From Chitinophagales bacterium (GTDB taxonomy: Bacteria > Bacteroidota > Bacteroidia > Chitinophagales > UBA10324): a stretch of DNA of 64,000 nt. Location: the NCBI GenBank assembly GCA_019694975.1, contig JAIBAY010000009.1:62001-126000 (forward strand). The letters are read 5' to 3'. The position numbers were made by a program, and so were the translations under genes. The notes below the pieces were generated by a model. That model was not told the origin of the DNA, did no database searches, and was given only the letters and a program-made list of their open reading frames with translations. Numbering within the stretch: the stretch's first letter is position 1; each line of letters opens with the position of its first letter. This document shows positions 40,484 to 48,010 of the stretch, one piece after another.

Positions 40484-42220
40484 TTATGCAACTGGTTTAT
40501 TTAACGCTATTGAAAAAATGCTTCCCTTTCCGATTTCACTTTGCAGGGATATTTCTCCTCCCTGTGCTTCAATAAATTCTTTGCTGATGGCAAGCCCGAG
40601 TCCTGTTCCTGATTTACTGCTGCCGGGAATTTGGAAATAGCGGTCAAATATTTTGTCTTTATATTTCGGCTCAATGCCTTTACCGGAATCTTTAACGGAG
40701 ATCAGAATTTTATTTTCAACCTCTTTTACTGTGAGCAGGACATTTGAATTTTCGTAAGAATAACGGATAGCATTGGACAGGAAATTGGTCAGCACCCATG
40801 CCGTCTTCTCTCGGTCGGCATTTACCGGCGGAATGTTATCCGGACAATCAATTGTTATAGCAATGTTTTTTTGTTCTGCCTGAACTTTCACGGCTTCAGT
40901 AGCATAGCGAATGATTTCCACCGGTGGTGTGGCCTGTAAACTCAATTGTATTTTTCCTGTTTCCACCTGTGTCATGTTAAGCAGTTCGCCCGTTATTTTT
41001 AAAAGCCGCTGACTGTCTTCCTTAACGCTTTGAATGAGTTGTTTCTGTTCCGAATTTACGCTGCCGACTTTTTCATTCACCAGCAGATCTAAACTCATGA
41101 GGATGGAAGAAATGGGTGTTTTAAGCTCATGTGAAACCGTGGCAATGAAATTTGTTTTGGCAAAATCCAGCTCTTTGAATGGCGTAATGTTTTGAAGGAT
41201 GATTACATCACCAATATGTTTGGATTGTTCTTCGGCAGTGGGAACGATTGAAATGGGAATGATTTCTTTTTCAAAAAAGCTTTCCTTGTTATCTGCGAAT
41301 ATTTTGAGCGGCTGCTGCTGCTTGCTGCCGTGGGTTCCCGGCTTAAGCACCTCCTGGATAAGAGAGCGCATTAAATCATTATGCACTGCAATTTCCTGCG
41401 CCGCTTTTCCAACCACATCTTCCTGTTTCAGCCCTGAAATTTTTAATGCCTCATCGTTGATGAAAAGAATTTTGCGGTTTTCATCTAACCCGATAACAGG
41501 GTCGTGCATGTTATTGATTAGTGTTTCAATGCGCTTTTTCTCCATCATCAGTTTAGCCAGATTGCTGTCGTTGTACTCTTGTAATTTTTCTGCCATAACA
41601 TTAAATGAATGCGCCAGGTCGCCAAATTCGTTGTGCTGTTCAAAGTGAACACGCTGGTTGTAATTTTTTGCGGCGATCTCCTTTACACTTTCGGTAAGCT
41701 CTTTAATTGGATTGGCGATGTTGGAGGGCAAATTAAGCAGCAGTGAAAAGGCAAGCAGGAAACAAAAAGCTCCTGTTATGGAAATCATTATGGTGGCTGT
41801 TCTTGCAGTGCTTTTTGCAATTTCACTTTTGCGTTGAATGGCCTGCATGTTGAGCAACATAATATCCGCAAGGTCGGCGCGGATGCTTACATATAATGCA
41901 CTGTCATGAAGATTGGATTTCAGCTTTTCGAAATCAAGGGTGAGCCTGGCAGTGAGTTCTTCTTCTCCCTTCTCTGTTACGTTGTTTTGCTGCTTGTTCA
42001 GATTTTCCCGGAAGATGTCAATAGCTGAATCGGAAACAGTCAGGTTATCCAGGGCAATGAGCATTTTCCGTGAATAGTCAATGGTGTTGTAGTTGTCGGC
42101 TAATATATTCTGTGTATCATTTGAAATCTGATTTGCGTATTTAACACCCACCGCAATCAGGATGATGATGAGCAGAAAGAGAAAGCTGACCCAGAGTGTA
42201 AGTTTTGCTTTGATTTTCAT
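40484..42220 (-). CDS. Sensor histidine kinase of the kdp locus (HAMP-PAS-HisKA-HATPase)
   Basis: 578 residues. Two membrane segments (about 7-27 and 150-170) flank a ~120-residue periplasmic helical region. Then come HAMP ('IANPIKELTESVKEIAAKNY'), a PAS-like module ('LINNMHDPVIGLDENRKILF'), HisKA with the phospho-accepting His in 'IATVSHELKTPISSIL', and HATPase boxes ('NFLSNAIRYSYEN', 'DSGKGIEPKYKDKIFDRYF', 'GTGLGLAISK'). It lies at the end of the kdp gene run. It probably supplies the kinase half of a split KdpD and phosphorylates the sigma-54-type regulator encoded at 50354-51700. That pairing is inferred from position. Confidence 0.88.
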   Translation of the reverse strand: MKIKAKLTLWVSFLFLLIIILIAVGVKYANQISNDTQNILADNYNTIDYSRKMLIALDNLTVSDSAIDIFRENLNKQQNNVTEKGEEELTARLTLDFEKLKSNLHDSALYVSIRADLADIMLLNMQAIQRKSEIAKSTARTATIMISITGAFCFLLAFSLLLNLPSNIANPIKELTESVKEIAAKNYNQRVHFEQHNEFGDLAHSFNVMAEKLQEYNDSNLAKLMMEKKRIETLINNMHDPVIGLDENRKILFINDEALKISGLKQEDVVGKAAQEIAVHNDLMRSLIQEVLKPGTHGSKQQQPLKIFADNKESFFEKEIIPISIVPTAEEQSKHIGDVIILQNITPFKELDFAKTNFIATVSHELKTPISSILMSLDLLVNEKVGSVNSEQKQLIQSVKEDSQRLLKITGELLNMTQVETGKIQLSLQATPPVEIIRYATEAVKVQAEQKNIAITIDCPDNIPPVNADREKTAWVLTNFLSNAIRYSYENSNVLLTVKEVENKILISVKDSGKGIEPKYKDKIFDRYFQIPGSSKSGTGLGLAISKEFIEAQGGEISLQSEIGKGSIFSIALNKPVA

Positions 42221-42319
42221 GACAGTAAATTGAAAGTGGACACTGGAAAATGGAATGCTGTCATAGTTTTATGCTTATAGTTTTTAAAGAATACACATAG
42301 AAGTTTATCAGGTTCTTCG

Positions 42320-42553
42320 TCATCGATGATCGGTAATACAGTGGAACATGCAGCAGTAAAATCTGAAACTTAAAAAAATCATCCGGCAACTGCATTCTTT
42401 GTTTTGATTGTTTACTATGGCGGATGTTCCGCTTCGCAATACATGTTTAGAAAGCATTAGTTCTTTCTGGCCTGCCTGTAAAAACTGAAAAAGCTTTGTA
42501 GCATGAATGGCAAACACATGAATTTTTGCTTTCAGGATATGCTCGATTTTCAT
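42320..42553 (-). pseudogene. Decayed four-helix-bundle (S23/Avd-like) protein gene
   Basis: A 77-codon frame whose first ~50 residues resemble the N-terminal half of the small four-helix-bundle family (around 'VFAIHATKLFQFL' and 'LMLSKHVLRSGTSAIVNN'). After that the similarity stops abruptly in a Cys/Phe-rich tail (CRMIFLSFRFYCC), as expected after a frameshift or deletion. Intact members are ~115-130 residues. It fills most of the 351-bp gap between the kdpD-like gene and the histidine kinase. Family assignment is from recall of the pattern. Confidence 0.6.
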
Positions 42554-42571
42554 GGTTGCAATTTTACATTT

Positions 42572-43696
42572 TCAGCTTAATATGACAAGGTCAATATCGG
42601 ATGCTGATAGATTTTTGAGCAACTCGTTTAAGATATTGGTAGCCAGGATGATTCTGAATAAATTGAGATGCGGCTTGCCGATGCAAATGGTTGTAATGTT
42701 GTGTTTCTTTGCTTGCTCAATCATGGCCAGCGGTATATTTTTTTCCTGCACCTGTATTACCTGTCCACCCAATTCAGTGGCAAGTTTGAAGTTGTTGATG
42801 AGATGCCGCTGTTTGTCCAGTGGAATATTGGCTGTGTCTTCAGCAGGAATCTGCACATACAGCACAAACCATTGCGCATTGTAATAGCTGGCTAACCGTG
42901 CGGTTTTGCGGATTACATTCTTCGCAGTTTTTTCATTGCTGCTGATGCAGGCAAGGAATTTTTCATGACGAAGAGCAGCATTTTTCGGCACTTCAATATC
43001 CACTTTGCGTTCTACCTGCGAAGCCACTTCCTTCAGGGCAAGTTCACGTAACTGTAGAATGTGTTCGGGCTTGAAGAAGTTGTTTAGCGCGGCTTGAATT
43101 TTTTCTGCCTGGTAAATTTTACCTTCTTTCAAACGAACTATCAGTTCATCCGCTGTGAGGTCAATATTGACCACTTCATCGGCTAATGCCAGGATCTTGT
43201 CAGGAATCCGCTCCGCCACTTCAACACCCGTAATGGCTTTAACCTCATCATTCAGGCTTTCGATATGCTGAATGTTTACGGCACTGATCACATTTATTCC
43301 GGCTTCCAGAATTTCAAGCACATCCTGCCAGCGCTTTTCATTTTTACTGCCCTGAATATTGGTGTGTGCGAGTTCATCAATAATCACCACCTCCGGACGG
43401 AGGCTGATGACAGCCTGCACATCTAATTCCTCCAGCTCTTTTCCTTTGTAAAAAAGTTTCCTGCGCGGAATAACCGGTAGCCCTTCCAGCAATTCATGTG
43501 TTTCTTTCCGGTGGTGAGTTTCTATATAGCCGACTTTTATATCTATGCCATTACGGAGCAGGGAATGGGCTTCCTGCAACATGCGGTATGTTTTTCCCAC
43601 ACCGGCACTCATGCCAATATAGATTTTAAACTTTCCGCGCCTTGATTTTTTAATCAGGTTCAGAAATTCTTCCGCCGACTTTCTTGTTTCTTCCAT
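42572..43696 (-). CDS. kdpD: KdpD N-terminal sensor domain plus universal-stress-like domain (no kinase)
   Basis: 374 residues. The KdpD N-terminal domain has the P-loop 'GMSAGVGKTYRMLQEAHSLL' and typical continuations ('VGYIETHHRKET', 'IDELAHTNIQGSKNEKRWQD', 'NIQHIESLNDEV'). Residues ~240-374 are a USP-like domain ('LACISSNEKTAKNVIRKTAR', 'IPLAMIEQAKKHNITTICIG'). The transmembrane, GAF and kinase parts of classical KdpD (~890 residues) are absent; a separate histidine kinase gene follows. Its ATG overlaps the porin stop by one base (TGATG). It likely senses cytosolic K+ or nucleotide state for the locus. Confidence 0.9.
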   Translation of the reverse strand: MEETRKSAEEFLNLIKKSRRGKFKIYIGMSAGVGKTYRMLQEAHSLLRNGIDIKVGYIETHHRKETHELLEGLPVIPRRKLFYKGKELEELDVQAVISLRPEVVIIDELAHTNIQGSKNEKRWQDVLEILEAGINVISAVNIQHIESLNDEVKAITGVEVAERIPDKILALADEVVNIDLTADELIVRLKEGKIYQAEKIQAALNNFFKPEHILQLRELALKEVASQVERKVDIEVPKNAALRHEKFLACISSNEKTAKNVIRKTARLASYYNAQWFVLYVQIPAEDTANIPLDKQRHLINNFKLATELGGQVIQVQEKNIPLAMIEQAKKHNITTICIGKPHLNLFRIILATNILNELLKNLSASDIDLVILS

Positions 43697-47544: not shown

Positions 47545-47565
47545 GGTGCTGTTTACTTAATTTGA

Positions 47566-47636
47566 AATGTAAGATGTGTTATGTGAAAAGTGAGATGTGA
47601 AATACGGAAGCTGAGATGATTTAATTTTGAGATAAC
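47566..47636. repeat. Short imperfect tandem repeats beside the decayed gene
   Basis: Purine-rich degenerate units such as GAAATGTAAGATGTG, GAAAAGTGAGATGTG and GGAAGCTGAGATGAT follow each other between the kdpB start and the decayed four-helix-bundle gene. This looks like non-coding low-complexity sequence. Confidence 0.5.
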
Positions 47637-47646
47637 AAAATCATGA

Positions 47647-48010
47647 ATAATAAAACCGCATAAGCAATTGCATGCATGGAGTAGCAGTTTTGGCTTTGTA
47701 AAGGATATATAGGGCATTACAAGCAATTTTCCTGCGGAGGAAGAGTTTGGATTGGTTTCCCAGATGCGATGGGCAGCTGTTTCCATTCCTGTAAATATTG
47801 CTGAGGGTGCAGCCAGGAGAAGCCCAAAAGAGTTTGTCCATTTCGTGCGCATTTCATTAGGTTCAATGACCGAACTTGTCACAGTTATTTTACTTCGCGA
47901 GGAGCTTGGTTTCATTGACAACAGTGAAGCAGATTTGTTGGTCGAAAAATCGGATTTCATTGGAAAGCTTCTTTATGGCTTAATTATGAGCGGTGAGGAT
48001 AGGTTTAGTA
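47647..48010 (+). pseudogene. Decayed four-helix-bundle (S23 rRNA-intervening-sequence family) gene inside the kdp locus
   Basis: Plus-strand frame reading 'KQLHAWS' ... 'FVKDI', then in-frame TAG (47710-47712), then 'GITSNFPAEEEFGLVSQMRW', 'AAVSIPVNIAEGAARRSPKE', 'FVHFVRISLGSMTELVTVIL' and 'FIGKLLYGLI'. This is the full-length pattern of the ~120-residue four-helix-bundle family, with a stop where a Tyr codon is expected. No start codon follows the upstream TGA (47644) in frame. It is antisense to the kdp genes on both sides and fills the kdpA-kdpB gap. The frame stays open into the 3' end of kdpA (antisense), which is not family sequence. Confidence 0.8.

Follow-up and report, generated by a model that had tools for sequence, protein, structure and literature searches.

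A 351-nt insert between two genes of a kdp locus is probably a minimal foldback element in a decayed state. It lies in the window, the whole 64-kb stretch of DNA that was analysed. Intact relatives measure ~0.4–0.6 kb and consist of a gene for a four-helix-bundle (4HB) protein of ~120 amino acids set between two arrays of ~7-nt repeats. We consider it likely that these elements belong to the gaps of operons and are akin to the intervening sequences of 23S rRNA.

A 4HB relic in the kdpD–kinase gap

The insert, its flanking host genes and a second 4HB remnant in the same window are as follows.

40484–42220, minus strand: host gene, HAMP-PAS-HisKA-HATPase histidine kinase (domain scans)
42221–42571, no strand assigned: whole insert between the host genes, 351 nt, or 348 nt as counted in the junction comparison (gene boundaries and nearest homologue)
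42221–42262, minus strand: what survives of the downstream heptad arm (CCATTTT CCAGTGT CCACTTT CAATTTA ...), immediately preceding the histidine-kinase start (7-nt autocorrelation)
42320–42553, minus strand: open reading frame of 77 amino acids
42320–42412, minus strand: remainder of that frame, without similarity (matches stop near residue 46)
42413–42544, minus strand: N-terminal ~44 codons of a 4HB protein of the A2 subfamily, the only part of the gene to survive (profile A2, phmmer, local HMM)
42554–42571, minus strand: possible remnant of the upstream arm directly after the kdpD-like stop, not significant (acf7, p = 0.10)
42572–43696, minus strand: host gene, KdpD-like non-kinase sensor (NCBIfam NF038185 and PF02702)
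47554–47618, plus strand: upstream heptad arm of the second remnant (acf7, p = 0.0002)
47661–47978, plus strand: second remnant, a 4HB gene of PF05635 type lying antisense between kdpA and kdpB, with one TAG and no start codon seen (Pfam, 105.5 bits)

Residues ~3–46 of the frame at 42320–42553 are homologous to 4HB (23S-IVP/S23) proteins. phmmer matched it to PDB 2RLD (E = 7.8e-6), a single-sequence search with a cut-off of E ≤ 1e-3 gave matches in 42/247 further genomes of the order (43/248 with its own genome included), and a local HMM built from 52 seeds, this frame not among them, recovered it at E = 1e-4. Profile A2, made from 18 relatives, gave two matches in total when run against the whole 4.3-Mb genome, the second being the window remnant (C9:104413–104544, that is, window positions plus 62000; 40 bits) at an E-value of 1.2e-9, which is somewhat favourable because the 18 members came from searches with this frame. 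The match to PDB 2RLD is untouched by this bias. The original prediction had proposed an HMM search as a check; taken literally, as a scan with hmmscan of the curated families in Pfam, NCBIfam and PHROGs, it yielded no 4HB family at E ≤ 1, the surviving piece being short and its subfamily divergent, whereas the local HMM and profile A2 did reveal the similarity. Family membership thus comes from the PDB match and the relatives' profile, not from the curated models PF05635 and TIGR02436. The prediction was right about the homology and the flanking genes, but its description of the piece as the N-terminal half of a 4HB gene was generous, as ~44 of ~119 residues remain. Past residue ~46, a few weak matches extend to residues 52–61 and one to residue 72. 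The absence of similarity beyond this point means that the complete four-helix frame is missing, and the insert is therefore a relic and not a working gene. The downstream arm has a 7-nt autocorrelation of 0.256 (shuffle p = 0.0008); mutual pairing between the two arms of the remnant is not significant (p = 0.26).

We then compared the same gap in relatives. The best NCBIfam match of the KdpD-like sensor, NF038185, is below its cut-off and PF02702 is above its own. Among 47 other genomes with a KdpD match, 32 loci, taken as best matches, were read at the kdpD–kinase junction, and 31 were readable once one with a wrongly taken stop (L127) had been left out. None of the 31 has a 4HB gene in the gap, and since the largest gap is 194 nt, there is no room for one in any of them. 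In the nearest relative (G109, KdpD 91% identical), the kdpD stop and the kinase start are 1 nt apart. That genome belongs to another family, and the 91% identity of its KdpD-like protein (L116) may, judging from the sequences, reflect horizontal transfer of the kdp locus. The 194-nt gap of G045 (L009) is filled for the most part by GTGAAAA-like heptamers, after which comes an ATCTTAC-like array; the gene is absent, and we take this to be the arms-only state at the site of the window remnant. Another relative, G013, has a CACATAG..CTATGTG hairpin in this gap, again with the gene absent.

The second remnant, at 47661–47978, scores above Pfam's cut-off for PF05635. Its upstream arm is the only stretch of the window above a threshold of 0.60 (42-nt windows, lags 5–11) and, like STRR and heptameric SSR, consists of tandem 7-nt units in intergenic DNA; pairing of its arms is not significant (p = 0.52). 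With the local HMM (E ≤ 0.1), the window contains these two remnants and no third. A branch supported at 100/100 separates the A2 and PF05635 types among relatives, in a tree in which neither window remnant is a row and the bootstrap is not fully settled. Since their subfamilies differ, the two remnants are independent, as had been predicted.

The genome-wide count that the prediction had suggested gave five 4HB loci, namely the two window remnants and three elsewhere, with three of the five decayed. The 4HB gene in the genome's own atpD–atpC gap (L003, C3:142418–142737) is frameshifted and its complementary heptad arms are still visible (GAGTAGT/ACTACTC). The frames are open at the sucD–fabG locus (gene names by eye) and at C4:381417–381716 (L004). 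The gene at L004 is divergent, and each of its flanks resembles a foldback array of its own (TATTGAA-like, then TTCAACA-like). A further PF05635 match in a long frame of this genome was taken as chance (E = 0.23).

Complementary heptad arms around intact relatives

In the flanks of intact 4HB genes, short tandem arrays can be read on both sides, the downstream array being complementary to the upstream one. We quantified this in two sets of genes, both of which are best search matches rather than random draws. The order set (E ≤ 1e-8, near-complete HMM cover, 200-nt flanks, no N) reduced 122 HMM rows to 84 elements, and to 80 genes after removal of near copies. The broad set took the best 80 of 572 relatives from a collection that has a single genome for each species; 77 were used, three being too short, and their titles name, by reading, about 18 phylum-level groups. 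The arm score is the local match between the upstream 200 nt and the reverse complement of the downstream 200 nt. In the order set (n = 80) its median was 17.8 for an element's own arms, as against 10.2 for swapped partners and 10.2 in direct orientation, and the own partner outscored all 79 others in 32 of the 80 elements. For 33 other genes from the same loci the score was 10.4 (p = 2.6e-10 against 4HB genes). Own arms scored 21.2 and swapped arms 9.8 in the broad set (n = 77), and 26.6 and 10.2 in 17 of 18 plasmid regions (15 cyanobacterial, one from Treponema and one from Bernardetia), L154 and likewise L159 having been left out.

The arrays have a period of seven. Autocorrelation excess at lags 7, 14 and 21 was 0.167, 0.128 and 0.103 upstream and 0.176, 0.141 and 0.122 downstream, and it was near zero within the 4HB frame. 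The best lag (5–12) was 7 in 45/57 and 43/53 order-set gaps, in 55/77 and 57/77 broad-set arms, and in the upstream arms of 15/17 plasmid elements. A minority of elements (L198, L201, L230, L239, also L150 and L155) have a best lag of 8 nt in both arms.

For comparison of the heptamers themselves, the 80 genes of the order set were combined with the 73 of 77 broad-set genes that have frames of 300–460 nt. Heptad arrays were present on both sides in 112 of these 153 intact genes from many phyla, on one side in 30 and on neither in 11. When the three commonest heptamers of each arm were compared in any rotation, with controls under the identical rule, an exact reverse-complement heptamer was found across the arms in 75/112 elements (2.9% for swapped partners) and one within a single mismatch in 96/112 (14.6% for swapped partners). 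Direct-orientation matches numbered 10/112 exact and 25/112 within one mismatch. The complementarity is thus specific to the element. In predicted RNA folds, own arms form 36.5 bp with each other versus 18.4 bp when one arm is swapped (p = 1.6e-14); swapped arms pair too, owing to a tendency towards purines in upstream arms and pyrimidines in downstream arms, the upstream arm being the purine-richer one in 96/112.

In most intact relatives, then, the 4HB frame lies inside an inverted-repeat stem. It is the only thing between the arms when these are read by eye, with no transposase or recombinase inside, and it is under purifying selection (dN/dS 0.06–0.23 in 10 of 12 pairs, dS not being computable in the other two). 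A transposase adjoins some copies (two plasmid regions; L161 by eye) and an integrase adjoins another. One PF05635-type query gave no match at E 1e-4 in 50,697 phage records.

Operon setting, spread and decay

The original prediction had asked whether such genes prefer gaps within operons, and they do. Both neighbours are on the strand of the 4HB gene in 69/79 cases of the order set and 50/65 of the broad set, together 119/144, compared with 45/73 control genes from the same loci (Fisher p = 0.0013); neighbour strands were assigned by simple ORF calling, which makes them approximate, most of all in loci of high G+C content. Within the window, 22/39 genes have both neighbours on their own strand. 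Sites include fadB–fadA, etf, exb and nuo pairs (gene names by eye) and, by annotation, cas6–cas4 and cas10–cmr3. The CRISPR-cas cases are cyanobacterial plasmid genes (L141, L149 and L150; cas6–cas4 twice, cas10–cmr3). The elements L141 and L149 have heptad arrays, both arrays of L141 running in the same direction, and L150 has a best lag of 8 nt. Such 4HB genes were noted in 18 cas loci in a passage of a 2013 paper (PMC3936711). Possibly they are passengers rather than components of cas systems.

Gene and heptamer recur together at different sites. Under a strict criterion for different sites (a looser one gave the same picture), a heptamer was shared by 23/29 pairs with protein identity above 75%, 44/131 at 60–75%, 86/1042 at 50–60%, 82/3041 at 40–50% and 103/5641 (1.8%) below 40%. 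One cyanobacterial clade (L160–L168) supplies 26 of the 29 closest pairs; its nine members occupy nine unrelated sites, with one 40-bp match among all their flanks. Without this clade, the top bin falls to three pairs, one exact and all three at least 6/7, and the 60–75% bin becomes 37/123, with many Rhizobiales. Proteins at the same site that are 40–60% identical often differ in heptamer. A mobility role, another suggestion of the original prediction, gains support at the level of the family from this joint recurrence of gene and heptad arms; in the loci compared, we found no transposition event, target duplication or nuclease.

Relatives at the same site are common, so much of the inheritance is vertical. 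We had considered the eight fadB–fadA rows as one clade, but they are unresolved in the tree and unlabelled rows fall among them, so that one old insertion with arms evolving in concert is only suggestive there. At atpD–atpC, 30 genomes were read of 55 with a match, taken as best matches, and the gap contains a 4HB gene in two, the genome studied here and G005 (one of the 29 others). Some of the remaining gaps have arm-like hairpins by eye and the rest are short. Full, arms-only and empty states thus occur at one site.

We propose the following life cycle. The element, occupying gaps between genes mostly in operon direction, would ride the operon's transcription, and in the mRNA its arms would form a long stem that carries the 4HB frame as its loop. 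RNase III may cut this stem, in analogy to the 23S intervening sequence of Coxiella. The 4HB protein, a relative of Avd, would bind its own heptad stem, or a DNA hairpin, and would be needed for spread, which is presumably rare; the moving enzyme is probably the host's. Slippage and hairpin template switching could let the arrays change quickly and stay complementary; complementarity may be kept either by selection on pairing or by template switching. Loss of the gene would leave arms-only hairpins and, in time, nothing.

The alternative that survives best, unlikely in our estimate and yet worth weighing, is that 4HB gene and hairpin serve the host, which would keep them to insulate the operon or to switch mRNA processing, with nothing selfish involved. 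Shared positions in core operons (fadB–fadA, kdpB–kdpA, etf, exb, atpD–atpC) and the strong purifying selection on the gene would fit such a device. It is harder to reconcile with patchy presence (2/30 at atpD–atpC and 0/31 readable relatives at kdpD–kinase), with the decay of three of the five loci in this genome, with a single clade at nine unrelated sites and with copies lying antisense in the kdpA–kdpB gap.

We regard it as improbable that the heptad arrays are ordinary simple repeats grown by slippage, in which 4HB genes merely land. Heptamers are described as a common class of bacterial repeat in passages of PMC4692102 and PMC4679880, and gaps not touching a 4HB gene have some 7-nt excess, lag 7 still being their commonest best lag (42/135). 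The signal in these gaps is much weaker, however: acf7 exceeds 0.15 in 12/135 of them compared with 94/164 gaps touching a 4HB gene, and the autocorrelation excess at lag 7 is 0.026 compared with 0.180. The inverted heptamer on the other side in 75/112 elements and the heptamers shared by relatives at different sites also count against simple slippage.

A still poorer explanation is that the 4HB protein directs insertion to the kdp locus, as first proposed for this operon. Two 4HB remnants within 6 kb, and the arms-only array and hairpin in the kdpD–kinase gap of two relatives, had pointed that way. Full-length 4HB frames nevertheless occupy the same kdpA/kdpB site in the same orientation in two other genomes, G009 (L038/L113) and G057 (L077), which belong to two families and whose proteins are sisters (support 100/99), and the five loci of this genome are scattered, three of them outside the window; the proposal of targeting was not borne out. 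That the frame at 42320–42553 is a chance ORF without homology, as the silence of Pfam, NCBIfam and PHROGs might have implied, is refuted by the PDB 2RLD, single-sequence, local HMM and profile A2 matches and can practically be dismissed.

Returning to the minimal foldback element, a broader proposal goes beyond it, and we advance it tentatively, with slightly less than even confidence. The elements may form a pan-bacterial class of miniature mobile element in operon gaps, composed of a 4HB gene and self-complementary heptanucleotide arms, of which 23S rRNA intervening sequences would be the rRNA-inserted members and arms-only hairpins, including many heptanucleotide repeats reported from cyanobacteria and other bacteria, the remains. 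Each 4HB clade would recognize its own heptamer, and protein and repeat would co-evolve. If true, this would link 4HB proteins of no assigned function, present in many genomes, with unexplained intergenic heptanucleotide repeats. It predicts that each 4HB protein binds its own heptad hairpin and that operon transcripts are cut at the arms, and it advises caution where a 4HB gene lies in a cas or other operon, since the gene may be a passenger and no part of the system.

Comparison with known systems

Intervening sequences of 23S rRNA with an S23/IVP frame were reportedly described by Ralph and McClelland in 1993. Most intact 4HB elements resemble them in having a protein of the same family whose frame sits as a loop on an inverted-repeat stem; unlike them, they lie between protein genes and have element-specific heptamers on both sides. 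The window copy likewise sits between two protein genes, not inside a 23S rRNA gene, and three exact 23S words did not occur in the loci collected. In Coxiella, according to passages of PMC4990558, the 23S intervening sequence has tandem heptamers (GACAGAT) before the S23 frame, with an RNase III site at the first; it is excised by RNase III and is termed a selfish element.

PF05635 resembles Avd of diversity-generating retroelements in sequence and structure, as stated in a passage of PMC10053308. Unlike those retroelements, the 4HB elements have no reverse transcriptase named among the annotated neighbours in the 17 plasmid regions.

Cyanobacterial STRR are heptanucleotide repeats, and tandem 7-nt intergenic units of the STRR or heptameric SSR kind occur in the 4HB relatives. 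Published accounts, in the passages available, report heptamer repeats that are G-rich in Xanthomonas and Nostoc (PMC4692102) and TAACTGA heptamer repeats (PMC4679880); the word S23 is absent from the main text of both. As far as these passages go, the published repeats share with the 4HB elements intergenic 7-nt arrays, inverted pairs in Xanthomonas, and hosts that include cyanobacteria and Bacteroidetes. Searches of open-licence PMC papers brought up no publication connecting heptamer repeats with 4HB/S23 genes, which is no proof that none exists. The heptad-armed 4HB element may be one origin of bacterial heptanucleotide repeats.

Foldback transposons have inverted terminal arrays of short repeats, and REP/RAYT systems pair a small gene with hairpins. 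The 4HB elements contain neither transposase nor recombinase and are thus not classical transposons or insertion sequences; they differ from foldback transposons and REP/RAYT in this absence of a transposase gene, in their 7-nt unit and in a unit sequence specific to each element. What they have in common with these systems is inverted arrays of short repeats and a small gene with hairpins.
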